Part shown: in pieces, positions 46,437 through 50,731 of the stretch | Position numbering within the stretch: the first letter of the stretch is position 1 | Layout of the letters: each line of letters begins with the position of its first letter | Origin: Deltaproteobacteria bacterium | GTDB taxonomy: Bacteria; Myxococcota; Myxococcia; Myxococcales; 40CM-4-68-19 | DNA length: 64,000 nt | Assembly (NCBI GenBank): GCA_005879315.1 | Contig: VBLC01000049.1 | Location: 24,683 to 88,682, forward strand | Direction of reading: 5' to 3' | Made by a program: the position numbers and the translations under genes | Notes under the pieces: generated by a model | The model's input: the letters and a program-made list of their open reading frames with translations, nothing else | What the model was told of the DNA's origin: nothing | Databases searched by the model: none

Positions 46437-46563
46437 CTGCGTCAACTGCATTGCGCTCACTCGGTCCCGCTGGTATCACCGAGAAGGTCCTCGATAGATG
46501 CTCGCCGGGCGCCGAGGATGCTCCGCAACGCGCCGGAGCCGGAAGGCCGAGGCAGTCAAACCG

Positions 46564-47001
46564 ATGGCCGACTACGACCTTTTCGTACCCCAGAGCGTGC
46601 TCGCCAAGTGGTCGGAGCAAGGCCGCATCTCGGTGGTCGGCAACCTCCTCACCATTCTCGGCGAGAACAAGAATTTCGCCCTGACCAGCGCGGTCCGGTT
46701 CCTCAAGATGGAAGCAGGCGAGGATGTCGCCGGCCTCCTCCAGAAGGTGAAGACGATCGATGCCCTCAAGCAGATGGGCGCCGAGCACTACATGGAGTCG
46801 GTGATCCTCGGCGAGAGCGCCTACCAGGTGCAGCAGGGCTTCCTCGCCGAGGCGAATGCCCTTCGCCGCGCCGCGGCCGCATCGCAGGCGGCGAGCAAGC
46901 CGGCGGCCAAGCCCGGAGCGCCCGCCTCTTCTGCCGCCGAGGGCGAGAAGAACGCCGAGCCGGACTTGCTCGCGCAATTCCTCCTCGACAACCTCCCCTA
47001 G
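46564..47001 (+). CDS. Conserved-looking protein of unknown function
   Basis: The 145-residue product starts MADYDLFVPQSVLAKWSEQ. It has a helical N-terminal two-thirds (GRISVVGNLLTILGENKNFALTSAVRFLKMEAGEDVAGLLQKVKTIDAL) and an Ala/Pro-rich linker near 100-125, ending LLAQFLLDNLP. The pattern, with a folded domain plus a short C-terminal helix that could dock to a partner, is reminiscent of scaffold adaptors. It is 2 bases upstream of the hemX-hemA fusion, so it is probably in the heme operon. I do not recognise the family. Confidence 0.7.
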   Translation: MADYDLFVPQSVLAKWSEQGRISVVGNLLTILGENKNFALTSAVRFLKMEAGEDVAGLLQKVKTIDALKQMGAEHYMESVILGESAYQVQQGFLAEANALRRAAAASQAASKPAAKPGAPASSAAEGEKNAEPDLLAQFLLDNLP

Positions 47002-47003
47002 CC

Positions 47004-49130
47004 ATGGCGACGCTGCTGGTCCACATCGCGTTGCTCGCGTACGCGGCGGGAGCGGCCGCTTTTCTCATCTGGCTGGTGCGCCCCGGCCGCCGTTTCGTCC
47101 AGTGGGGCCGCGCGCTCCTCGGCGGCGGCGTGCTGGTGCACTTCGCTGCGCTCGCCGCCGGCGTGGGCGTCGCGTCGCTCGGCCTCGGCGCGGGCGCGTG
47201 GAAGGGCGGGCAGCTCTTCAGCCTCCTCGCCGCCATCACCGTGGCGGGGTACCTGCTGCTCGATCTCAAGTACGACCTGCCGGTGGCCGGCGCCTTCGTG
47301 GCGCCCTTCACGGTGGCGGTGATGGTGCCGGCGCACCTCGTGCCCTCGACTTCGCGCGCGGTCGCGCCGCAGCTTTCCCATTCGCTGGTGCTCTTCCTCC
47401 ACGTCGGCGCGGCCGCTCTCGGCACCGCTGTGCTGGCTCTCGCCTTCGGCCTCGCGCTCCTCTATCTCGCCAGCGAGAGGCAGATGAAGAGCAAGCGGCC
47501 GGGGCGGCTCTTCGCGCGGCTGCCCTCGCTCGATCTGATCGATCGCGCGGGCTACCGCCTCGCCGTCTGGGGTTTCGTCTTCCTCTCGCTCGCGATCGCG
47601 ACCGGTTCCTTCGTCTCGCGCGAGGCGACCGGCACGACGCTGCCGTTCGCCCCCAAGCAAGGCTTCGCTCTTCTCGCCTGGGCGCTCTTCGCCTCGCTCA
47701 TCCAGGCGCGGCTGGTCGCGGGCTGGCGAGGGCGGCGGGTGGCGCTTCTGGTCGTGACGGGCTTCGTGCTGCTCGCGGGCGTCTATGTCGGTCTGCTCTC
47801 CGCAGCGCCAGCGCTGCACGGCGCGACCGCCGCCACCTTCCTCTGCGTGGGAATCTCGCATCGCGAGGCGGCCATCGACGTGCGCGAGCAGCTGGCGGTG
47901 CCCACGGGGGAGCTGGCAGCGCGCCTTCTCAAGCTCAAGTCGTTGCCCGGCGTGCGCGAGGCGGCGCTGCTCTCCACCTGCAACCGCCTGGAGATCTACG
48001 CGGTCGGCGAGGGCAGCGCGGCGGCCGAGGAGATCCTCGAGGAGCTGGGCCCGCTCGCTGCGCCGCTCGCGGTCTGCCGCTTCGAGGAGGAGGCGCTCCG
48101 TCATCTCTTCCGCGTCTCCGCCAGCCTGGAGTCGATGGTGATCGGCGAGGCGCAGATCCTCGGCCAGGTGAAGGAGGCGGCGGCGCTGGCGCAAGGAGCG
48201 GGCGCCATCGGACCCGAGCTGGGCAAGGCCTTCGCCCGCGCGCTCACCGCTGCCAAGCGCGTGCGCACCGAGACGGAGATCGCCCGCGGCGCCGTCTCGC
48301 TCTCCAGCGTCGCCGTCAAGCTGGCGCACAAGCTGCTCGGCTCGCTCGAGGGCCGCTGCATGCTCCTGCTCGGCGCCGGCGAGATGGCCCAGCTCGCTGC
48401 GCGCGAGCTGCGCAGCGAAGGCGCGCGTGAGCTGCTCGTCGCCAACCGCAGCTCGGCCCGCGCCGAGGAGCTCGCCAGGGAGCAGGGCGGCGTGCCGGTC
48501 TCCCTCGCCGAGCTGCCGGCGCTGCTCGAGCGCGCCGACGTCGCCATCTGCTCCACCGCCGCCGTGGGTTACGTGGTCACCCGCGAGATGATGGCCAAGG
48601 CGCTCAAGGCGCGCCGCTACCAGCCCATCTTCCTCGTCGACCTCGCGCTGCCCCGCAACGTCGAACCGAGCACCAACGAATTGGAGAACGTCTACGTCTA
48701 CGACCTCGACGACCTCGACCGCGCCGCGGCGCAGAACCGCGAGCTGCGCGCGGGGGAGATGAGCAAGGCGGAAGCGATCGTCGAGGAGGAGCTGCGCGCG
48801 TTCACCTCTGCGGCCCGGGAGCGCGCGGCGCTGCCGGTCCTCGCCCGGCTGCGCGCGCATGCCGAGTCGCTGGCGCAGGCCGAGGCGGAGAAGACCCTGG
48901 CGGCGCTGCGCGGCCTCGACGAGCGGGCGCAAAAAAGCGTGCGGGCGATGGCGAGCGCCATCGTCAACAAGCTCTTGCACAACGCCACCCTCAAGCTGCG
49001 CTCCGACGGCGAACGGCTAGGCGACGCAGCCGCGGAGCTGTTCGCGCTCGAGTTGGCGCCGCAGCCGCCGCCCGACCCGGCGCCCGAGCCGGAAAAGGAC
49101 CCGGCGGTGGTGCCCTTGAGGAAGGTGTAG
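47004..49130 (+). CDS. hemA: HemX/CcsA-like membrane domain fused to glutamyl-tRNA reductase
   Basis: One unbroken frame of 708 residues joins two proteins usually encoded separately. Residues 1 to about 275 are a seven/eight-span CcsA/HemX-like domain (HSLVLFLHVGAAALG, ATGSFVSREAT), with the cytochrome-c-assembly WD motif and last His degenerate. From about 278 a full HemA follows: LCVGISHREAAIDVREQL, nucleophile C326 in LLSTCNRLEIYAV, NADPH motif LLGAGEMAQLAARELR and a C-terminal dimerisation helix. No ATG/GTG/TTG suits a separate HemA start, and no stop lies between. hemC starts at the next base. Fused HemX could tune 5-aminolevulinate supply. Confidence 0.88.
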   Translation: MATLLVHIALLAYAAGAAAFLIWLVRPGRRFVQWGRALLGGGVLVHFAALAAGVGVASLGLGAGAWKGGQLFSLLAAITVAGYLLLDLKYDLPVAGAFVAPFTVAVMVPAHLVPSTSRAVAPQLSHSLVLFLHVGAAALGTAVLALAFGLALLYLASERQMKSKRPGRLFARLPSLDLIDRAGYRLAVWGFVFLSLAIATGSFVSREATGTTLPFAPKQGFALLAWALFASLIQARLVAGWRGRRVALLVVTGFVLLAGVYVGLLSAAPALHGATAATFLCVGISHREAAIDVREQLAVPTGELAARLLKLKSLPGVREAALLSTCNRLEIYAVGEGSAAAEEILEELGPLAAPLAVCRFEEEALRHLFRVSASLESMVIGEAQILGQVKEAAALAQGAGAIGPELGKAFARALTAAKRVRTETEIARGAVSLSSVAVKLAHKLLGSLEGRCMLLLGAGEMAQLAARELRSEGARELLVANRSSARAEELAREQGGVPVSLAELPALLERADVAICSTAAVGYVVTREMMAKALKARRYQPIFLVDLALPRNVEPSTNELENVYVYDLDDLDRAAAQNRELRAGEMSKAEAIVEEELRAFTSAARERAALPVLARLRAHAESLAQAEAEKTLAALRGLDERAQKSVRAMASAIVNKLLHNATLKLRSDGERLGDAAAELFALELAPQPPPDPAPEPEKDPAVVPLRKV

Positions 49131-50024
49131 ATGCTTCGCATCGCCACGCGGAAGAGCGCGCTGGCGCTCTGGCAGGCGGAGCGGATCAAGTCCCTGTTGG
49201 CGGAACCGGCCGAGCTGGTTCCGATGAGCACCGAAGGCGATCGCATCCCCGATCGCTCGCTGGCGGAGGCCGGCGGCAAGGGCCTCTTCGTCAAGGAGCT
49301 GGAGCAGGCGCTCTTCGAGGGCCGCGCCGATCTGGCGGTGCACAGCGCCAAGGACGTGCCCTTCGCGCTGCCCGAGCGGCTCTCGCTCTGCGCCTTTCCT
49401 GCGCGCGAGGACGCTCGCGACGCGCTGGTCGCGCCGGCCGCGAAGACCTTCGCGCGGCTGCCCCGCGGGGCGCGCGTCGGCACCAGCTCGCTGCGGCGCG
49501 CGGTGCAGCTGCGGGCGGAGCGGCCGGATCTGGAGATCGTCCCTCTGCGCGGCAACGTCCCGACCCGCGTCGCCAGAAGCGAGGGCCTCGACGCCGTCGT
49601 GCTCGCGCTCGCGGGCTTGCGGCGGCTGGGGCTTGCGGACAAGGCCACCGAGATCCTGCCGGTCGAGCTTTCACTCCCGGCGGCCGGCCAAGGAGCGCTG
49701 GCGGTCGAGGTGGTCCGCGGCTCGCGCGGGGAGATGGCGGCCTCGCCGCTCGACGATGCGGCCACCTCGCGCTGCGTGCGCGCCGAGCGTGCGGTGCTGG
49801 CGCGGCTTGCGGGCGGATGCACCCTGCCGATCGCAGCCTATGCGGTCCAAGAGGGCCAGCTTCTCTGGCTGCGCGCGGTGCTGGGCGGCCCCGACGGCCG
49901 CGGCGGCGTGACGGTCCTCCGCGCCGAGGCGCGCGGCGGCGATCCGGATCAACTCGGCCGCGCGGTGGCCGAGGCGCTGCTCGAGAAGGGCGGCGCGGCG
50001 CTCCTCGCCGCGGCCAAGGCATGA
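49131..50024 (+). CDS. hemC: Porphobilinogen deaminase (hydroxymethylbilane synthase)
   Basis: The 297-residue enzyme builds hydroxymethylbilane from four porphobilinogens. Signatures are ATRKSALALWQAERIK, GGKGLFVKELEQALFEGRADLAVHSAKDVP, VGTSSLRRAVQLRAERPDLEI with RGNVPTR, and the dipyrromethane-binding C230 in LAGGCTLPIAAYA. The start ATG touches the hemA stop, and hemD overlaps its end. The C-terminal domain is a little short but complete. It is a cytosolic step of heme and vitamin B12 synthesis. Confidence 0.95.
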   Translation: MLRIATRKSALALWQAERIKSLLAEPAELVPMSTEGDRIPDRSLAEAGGKGLFVKELEQALFEGRADLAVHSAKDVPFALPERLSLCAFPAREDARDALVAPAAKTFARLPRGARVGTSSLRRAVQLRAERPDLEIVPLRGNVPTRVARSEGLDAVVLALAGLRRLGLADKATEILPVELSLPAAGQGALAVEVVRGSRGEMAASPLDDAATSRCVRAERAVLARLAGGCTLPIAAYAVQEGQLLWLRAVLGGPDGRGGVTVLRAEARGGDPDQLGRAVAEALLEKGGAALLAAAKA

Positions 50025-50731
50025 GCTTGCAAGGCAAGCGCGTGCTGGTGACTCGCGCCGCGGAGGAGGCGCCCGAGCTGGAGGACCTTCTCCGCCAGCG
50101 CGGCGCCGTGCCGGTGCGCTTTCCCTGCATCGAGTTCGAGGATGGGCGCGATCTGGAAGAGATCGTCCTCGCGCTCGAGAAGCGTCCGGACCTGGTCGTC
50201 GTCTCCTCGCCGCACGCCGCGCGCCGGTTGAAGGAGCTTTCGACGAGCGAAGATCAGATCTTCGCCGCGGTCGGGGCTGCGACCGCCGCGCTTTTGCCCG
50301 GCAAGGCGATCACTCCCAGCCGCGGCGCCGGCGCCCAGGCCCTGGTCGAGGAGCTGAGAGCGAGGGTGCGCGGCAAGCGCGTGCTCGTGCCGCGCGCCGA
50401 GGGCGGCACCAGAGAGCTGGTCGATGGATTGCGCAGCGCGGGCGCCAACGTCGAGGCGCTGACCCTCTACCGCACGGTGACGCCCAGGAGCGCCGATCTC
50501 TCGCTCCTGCGCGCTCTCGACGCCATCTCCTTTGCCAGCGGCAGCGCAGTCCGCGGCTTCGTCGCGCTCGCCGGCGCGCAGGCGGCGCGGCGCTGTGCCG
50601 TGGCGTGCATCGGCGCCGCCACCGCCGCCGCCGCAAGAGATGCGGGCATCCGCGTCGATGCGCAGGGCGACGAAGGCATGATCGGACTCTGCGACGCGCT
50701 CGCTCTCGCGCTGGTGCGCCGCAACGGTTAG
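50021..50731 (+). CDS. hemD: Uroporphyrinogen-III synthase
   Basis: The 236-residue protein has the two-domain HemD pattern: GKRVLVTRAAEEAPELEDLLRQRGA at the start, VVSSPHAARRL, then the hinge into GKRVLVPRAEGGTRELVDGL and ANVEALTLYRTV. It ends with ISFASGSAVRGF and CIGAATAAAARDAGIRVD. It closes the linear tetrapyrrole to uroporphyrinogen III. HemD is poorly conserved, so position after hemC (ATGA overlap) is important support. A receiver gene follows after 12 bases. Confidence 0.9.
   Translation: MSLQGKRVLVTRAAEEAPELEDLLRQRGAVPVRFPCIEFEDGRDLEEIVLALEKRPDLVVVSSPHAARRLKELSTSEDQIFAAVGAATAALLPGKAITPSRGAGAQALVEELRARVRGKRVLVPRAEGGTRELVDGLRSAGANVEALTLYRTVTPRSADLSLLRALDAISFASGSAVRGFVALAGAQAARRCAVACIGAATAAAARDAGIRVDAQGDEGMIGLCDALALALVRRNG

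Follow-up and report, generated by a model that had tools for sequence, protein, structure and literature searches.

An in-frame fusion of the membrane protein HemX and glutamyl-tRNA reductase (HemA) in a myxobacterial genome and a few close relatives

Introduction

How can glutamyl-tRNA reductase (HemA), a cytoplasmic enzyme, be encoded in one frame with the membrane protein HemX, attached to the very end of HemX that is predicted to lie outside the cytoplasm? The question is raised by a single gene in a 64000-nucleotide stretch of myxobacterial DNA (hereafter the window; contig VBLC01000049.1 of assembly GCA_005879315.1). HemX and HemA are a known pair; here, and in a small number of closely related bacteria, a single gene encodes both.

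HemX belongs to PF01578 and has eight helices; its gene adjoins gtrR in 106 of 113 surveyed genomes, and it lowers HemA abundance in Staphylococcus aureus and Bacillus subtilis (PMC5801465). At the time of that paper, the action of HemX on HemA was undefined and no HemX partner had been identified. In B. subtilis and S. aureus the same two proteins, HemX and GtrR/HemA, are made from two genes as two proteins, whereas in the window one frame encodes both, hemX first, with HemA on the HemX C-terminus that is predicted to lie outside. Our literature search, which had most subscription papers outside its reach, found no report of a HemX–HemA fusion among the titles and abstract openings listed, and nor did the portion of PMC5801465 used here contain one.

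Results and discussion

The fusion gene and its neighbours

The features of the locus are as follows.

46498..47001, forward strand, upstream open reading frame of 167 amino acids; no Pfam match; ends two bases before the ATG of the fusion
47004..49130, forward strand, hemX–hemA fusion gene; ATG at 47004, stop TAG at 49128–49130; 708 codons plus TAG
47004..47819, forward strand, HemX-type membrane domain, residues 1–272, from the PF01578 match and the structure model
47400..47402, forward strand, codon for His133, kept in all aligned HemX rows
47799..47834, forward strand, junction (end of the last HemX helix plus linker), residues 266–277; no stop and no usable start
47817..47819, forward strand, codon for His272 (the late histidine), kept in all four fused proteins
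47835..49127, forward strand, HemA (glutamyl-tRNA reductase) domain, residues 278–708; STCNR nucleophile Cys326 and GAGEM nucleotide-binding motif
49131..50024, forward strand, hemC (porphobilinogen deaminase); ATG directly after the TAG of the fusion
50021..50731, forward strand, hemD (uroporphyrinogen III synthase); PF02602; ATG placed from the frame of the 49817–50731 open reading frame, overlapping the hemC stop

HemA proteins are recognized by a nucleophilic cysteine residue in STCNR and by a GxGxM nucleotide motif. In the 708-residue product of the fusion gene, Pfam matches, all above cut-off, were found to PF01578 (residues 80–259), PF05201 (282–424), PF01488 (439–573) and PF00745 (588–682), with all three HemA domains (GlutR_N, NADPH-binding and dimerization) present. 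The PF01578 match scored 81 bits against a cut-off of 29.9 and the NCBIfam hemA model TIGR01035 scored 389 bits against 209.55, and both STC326NR and GAGEM align with their counterparts in the structures 4n7r and 1gpj. In the structure model the HemX domain has eight predicted transmembrane helices (residues 2–25, 29–53, 68–90, 93–112, 128–163, 176–209, 217–239 and 244–270), so that the PF01578 match, the eight helices and the linkage to hemA expected of a HemX are all present, the last of them as a fusion. These data bear out the preliminary description of a single 708-codon frame running from HemX into HemA, the coordinates of which are exact, with both domains complete and no dividing stop. 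The fusion gene heads an operon-like hemXA–hemC–hemD row; the spacing of the 167-amino-acid frame at 46498–47001 is such that it is possibly co-translated with the fusion.

Authenticity and distribution of the fusion

An assembly or sequencing error is one explanation of such a frame, as the 125-contig assembly that contains the window is a draft and frameshift mosaics that mimic this fusion exist in the databases (P0022, P0032, P0035, P0038 and P0055); an error near 47800 concealing two separate frames had been considered in the preliminary description. Of the other two frames, one has its nearest stops at codon indices 250 and 378 and the second at 474. A single-base indel at the junction would therefore not restore a HemX stop together with a HemA start, and GC3 is 0.85–0.94 across the junction. 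The only in-frame ATG, GTG or TTG codons within residues 236–290 are GTG246, GTG251 and GTG255, which lie within the last HemX helix, and GTG282, which lies within the first HemA strand and as a start would drop residues 278–281; GTG293 and GTG299 are deeper in HemA. With every candidate either in a helix or inside HemA, the earlier statement that no such codon suits a separate HemA start is upheld.

We then searched a protein database with the HemX part, with only proteins of more than approximately 390 residues as candidates. Both Pfam families occur in four of the 17 proteins returned, namely P0002, which differs from the window's protein by one residue, and P0003, P0004 and P0005, which are 77–81% identical to it and lie on other contigs. 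P0005 is a partial record, with the N-terminus absent, on a 2235-base contig, and P0004 represents five sequences, which come from four sources and lie on four contigs of as much as 245 kb. The search for other HemX-plus-HemA proteins proposed at the outset has thus yielded three distinct ones in addition to the near-identical P0002. The junctions read LHG-ATAA-TFLCVG in the window and LHG-GAAA-TFLCVG, LHG-VAA-TLICVG and LHG-SAAA-TFLCVG in the three other fused proteins, the length of the linker varying by no more than one residue across the four. On the strength of these clean records, the stop-free other frames and the absence of a hidden start, we rejected an assembly or sequencing error, which is barely conceivable here; the in-frame HemX–HemA fusion is real.

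A second search, with the HemA part of a 981-residue frame and a length limit that excluded ordinary HemA, returned 29 proteins from 7995 scored candidates. PF01578 and PF05201 were found together in nine of these, four being P0002–P0005. We rejected as independent fusions P0022, P0032 and P0035, in which the HemX end is out of frame, P0038, in which the second half of HemA is out of frame, and P0055, a mosaic that came up among 35 proteins (3871 candidates) when the query was the HemX part of a Nitrospirota locus; P0006, a mosaic in which HemA begins from its own methionine residue, was rejected as a fusion. The first five are frameshift mosaics easily taken for genuine HemX–HemA fusions. A further record, P0031 (687 amino acids, a single record on a 3125-base contig), looks clean and retains the HemA methionine residue, and is a possible separate fusion outside the group. 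From these protein database searches, which reach relatives sharing short exact words with the query, we claim no independent fusion outside the window's group.

The main hemX–hemA pair is separate in all six same-genus genomes (G001–G006), the two genes having a four-base overlap that is ATGA in five and GTGA in one. HemX and HemA matches lie close together in 62 of 112 loci scanned, with a HemX model that was built from three close sequences and may miss distant HemX in the other 50, and a single stop-free frame containing both occurs only in two loci (L002 and L003), both of which are the window's own locus. Across the phylum, 167 of 195 genomes gave a match; in the list of matches, which reaches down to approximately E 1e-75, only the window's own spans both domains without a stop, and four (G067, G139, G019 and G192) span both with one in-frame stop. 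On present data, therefore, the fusion is rare and restricted to one small group.

Origin of the fusion

Trees were built from HemA (18 rows) and from HemX plus HemA (13 rows). The window's protein (P0001), P0003 and P0005 cluster with support of 93/95 and 83/84 respectively, and P0004 takes an unresolved place beside an unfused group in both trees. In the best trees, which imply two changes, the fused proteins are not all grouped together; their union in one clade is nonetheless not rejected (p-AU 0.33).

A four-base stop/start overlap is the usual sign of translational coupling. The window's junction DNA reads GGC GCG ACC GCC GCC ACC TTC, and in four same-genus loci (L004, L005, L006 and L009) the corresponding ACx TTC/CTG codons come immediately after an ATG or GTG. 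Judging from these relatives, the fusion would have arisen at an ancestral overlap of this kind, ATGA or GTGA, whose bases serve both to end hemX and to begin hemA: a small out-of-frame indel at this point (loss of two bases or gain of one) would remove stop and start together and join the frames, and ribosomes already coupled from hemX to hemA would read straight on.

The window's assembly has no second hemA. Three of the six same-genus genomes do have one, so that hemA may have been redundant at the time of the fusion, a point that we count against the reading of the product favoured below. The second copies of G002 and G005 (L113, reverse complement, approximately 391–435; L115, approximately 1466–1510) have no hemX alongside them. 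In its place each has a 14-codon frame, MEMLLVHIALLGWS or METVLVHIALLGWE, that looks like the beginning of HemX and runs into the start of hemA through an ATGA overlap, and hemX here seems to have shrunk to a leader that preserves translational coupling.

Function of the fused HemA

In the whole assembly, which comprises 125 contigs and is 97.55% complete, PF05201 has one match. The assembly also encodes HemL (563.7 bits, cut-off 527.3), and the ALA synthase model gave four weaker matches in the assembly, none of them above cut-off. With a single HemA, a HemL and no ALA synthase above cut-off, the fused HemA should be working and should be the only entry to ALA. In comparisons of the window with six unfused relatives, dN/dS was 0.27–0.38 for HemA (0.16–0.31 for unfused pairs) and 0.16–0.25 for HemX (0.09–0.27 among the unfused). 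Both halves are under purifying selection; the window's HemA, which has a longer branch on the HemA tree, is evolving somewhat faster yet is constrained. We count this faster evolution, too, against the reading favoured below.

The proline residue of the SHKxAP motif, at window residue 290 (47871–47873) and 12 residues past the start of HemA, is lost in all four fused proteins, where it is replaced by Ala, Val, Ala and Ser. Of 115 unfused HemA rows, 97 have this proline residue, as do 15 of the 17 nearest (Fisher p 0.0009, with kinship ignored), and its loss may reflect an altered HemA N-terminus. In addition, the fused and near rows share no residue at two C-terminal HemA positions (662 and 705, in a numbering two below the residue number).

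A conflict of topology

The substrates of HemA, glutamyl-tRNA and NADPH, are cytoplasmic. To judge on which side of the membrane the HemX C-terminus lies, we counted lysine and arginine residues in its loops, using helix limits set by hand from the model and leaving out the C-terminal tail: they favour the would-be inside (odd) loops in 32 of 32 HemX rows, with means of 12.75 and 3.6, which places both ends outside. The charge pattern is alike in fused and unfused rows. In the window's protein no other helix is as hydrophobic as the last one (244–270), which is about equally hydrophobic in the unfused relatives.

The published prediction for HemX homologues is likewise of eight spans with both termini extracytoplasmic (PMC5801465). 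By fold comparison, the HemX domain superposes on residues 626–906 of CcsBA; when the HemX part alone was searched against solved structures, one chance-level match (E 2.3) was obtained. The large periplasmic region of CcsBA comprises residues 98–633 and two periplasmic histidine residues flank its external WWD site (PMC6299221), and V889 and N890 mark the outer end of TM13 (PMC10663686). The superposed segment thus starts at the end of the periplasmic region and stops beyond the outer end of TM13, with both of its ends outside.

The charge rule and the fold therefore agree with the prediction that both ends of HemX are outside, but the cytoplasmic enzyme fused to one of them argues against this. 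Given a C-terminus predicted outside and substrates that are cytoplasmic, simple tethering is at odds with the predicted topology and would require a further step. Either the last helix does not end up spanning the membrane, or HemA is set free or has a start of its own, or HemX does not follow the prediction. The preliminary description had HemA tethered to the membrane by the fusion; the in-frame fusion behind that proposal is true, but it made no mention of the predicted outside C-terminus, with which simple tethering clashes. The fusion forces a test of the published topology, as it places a cytoplasmic enzyme after a C-terminus that the charge rule, the fold and the published prediction all put outside.

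Taken at face value, the charge and structure evidence would favour a HemX that keeps its predicted topology and carries an exported, inactive HemA, with another source of ALA feeding the cell; the second hemA of three same-genus genomes also fits. This is very improbable in view of the single PF05201 match (a second copy could sit in the missing 2–3% of the genome), the lack of an ALA synthase over cut-off, the presence of HemL and the purifying selection on HemA.

The product of the fusion gene

The reading that we favour, at a probability of approximately 0.5, is one tethered chain, in which HemA would work inside the cytoplasm at the membrane and the last helix would not remain across it. 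We infer a single uncut product with HemA on the inner face, and helix 244–270 would then not stay a normal inside-to-outside span, for example if HemA folds before export and holds the helix back. One chain is favoured because the fused proteins share no alternative start and a coupled ribosome would read on, and the topology is what holds our confidence at this level. Residue 270 is Ala, Val, Asn and Val at the four fused junctions, and the stretch 266–282 has just two residues that could be starts in all four, Leu271 (encoded by CTG in the window) and Val282. Both are also present in unfused proteins, so that the protein sequences of the four junctions have no new start position in common. 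The Shine–Dalgarno-like energies were −6.9, −6.1 and −2.9 kcal/mol for GTG246, GTG251 and GTG255 and zero for CTG271 and GTG282. The best of these, −6.9 kcal/mol, is within background (5% point −7.8), and the measure is a weak one, with accepted starts in the window ranging from 0 (the fusion's own ATG) to −8.5 (hemC).

The same codons bear on the possibility that HemA is also started internally within the hemX frame, the long frame then being an in-frame nested pair of which the HemX-linked copy is a by-product: a start at CTG271 or GTG282 would give a soluble HemA, and one at GTG246, 251 or 255 a HemA anchored by the last helix. Internal starting would remove the topology conflict. GTG246 has GAGGG six bases upstream and an energy like that of several real starts in the window, P0031, outside the group, retains a methionine residue at the HemA start, and the SirC–HemX record P0052 has one at its HemX start. 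We nevertheless consider it unlikely, as the four junctions have no new start position in common at the protein level, the energies fall inside the background, GTG282 would remove residues 278–281 of the first strand, and HemX without HemA would still be impossible, since no frame stops near the junction.

P0052 (493 amino acids) has a precorrin-2 dehydrogenase-type domain (TIGR01470, 155.9 bits) ahead of an intact HemX-like protein. If real, it has a cytoplasmic enzyme joined to the opposite end of HemX, which is likewise predicted to lie outside. We give SirC–HemX fusions little weight as a further reporter of topology: P0052 is one record, and a stop lies between the genes in both candidate loci.

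Alternatively, the chain could be made whole and then cut near the linker (approximately residues 266–277), freeing a soluble HemA. Residues 267–275 are modelled with low confidence (pLDDT <50) and are probably flexible, and CcsBA, a fold relative of HemX, undergoes natural cleavage on expression in E. coli, although there the cut falls in the periplasmic region (PMC6299221). Cleavage would leave the topology problem in place unless the linker were inside, and by eye no protease motif is common to the four linkers; we regard it as improbable.

Returning to the single tethered chain, the HemX domain would likely act as a built-in brake on HemA, by analogy with B. subtilis and S. aureus, where HemX affects HemA abundance; here the control would be exerted in cis. 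Much more speculatively, and with considerable doubt, the last HemX helix could be a movable gate, HemA being cytoplasmic and the accepted outside C-terminus either wrong or heme-dependent. Sensor helix and enzyme would in that case form one molecule, a cis feedback switch in which HemX-bound heme sets the position or lifetime of HemA.

Partner control of this enzyme has a parallel in plants, where FLU and the GluTR-binding protein, partners that bind the reductase or are associated with the membrane, determine where it is located and how stable it is. The likeness is confined to partner control of the reductase, as FLU and the GluTR-binding protein are unrelated to HemX and act in trans. In Salmonella, the amount of HemA is controlled through its N-terminus, which carries a degron for ClpAP/Lon (PMC5801465), whereas the N-terminus of the window's HemA is not free, being joined to a membrane helix that precedes it. 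That HemX and HemA can work as a single gene product is suggested by the existence of a natural one-to-one fusion, which also offers a ready reagent for asking whether a HemX-joined HemA is active.

Heme-binding features of the HemX domain

The WWD motif, between helices 6 and 7, is replaced by TGTTLPFAPKQGFALLAW in the window and is degenerate in all 13 aligned rows of the window's family (four fused, nine unfused), and WGxxWxWDP is kept in several distant HemX proteins. By its position and the motif of these proteins, we take His133 to be the first outer heme-ligand histidine (P-His1) of CcsA-type proteins. A heme-ligand role for the P-His1 residue is described for CcsBA (PMC6299221 and PMC10663686). 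His272 is replaced in three of the six unfused same-genus proteins (by Gln, Ser and Arg). The preliminary description of a degenerate WD motif and late histidine is right in outline, but the loss of the motif is common to unfused relatives and so is not a consequence of the fusion.

Unlike the CcsBA/CcsA cytochrome c synthase of Helicobacter hepaticus (7s9y), the window's protein has a degenerate WWD and scores below the cut-off of the cytochrome c synthase model TIGR03144 (95.0 bits compared with 187.6). The doubt expressed earlier about heme export is therefore justified, and extends to the unfused relatives. Another PF01578 protein (148.6 bits), on a different contig of the genome, is the likelier cytochrome c synthase. 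In one same-genus genome, for which 5% contamination is given, a second hemX–hemA–hemC row (L114, G003:C647), either a paralogue or a contaminant, adjoins a WWD-containing cytochrome c assembly frame.
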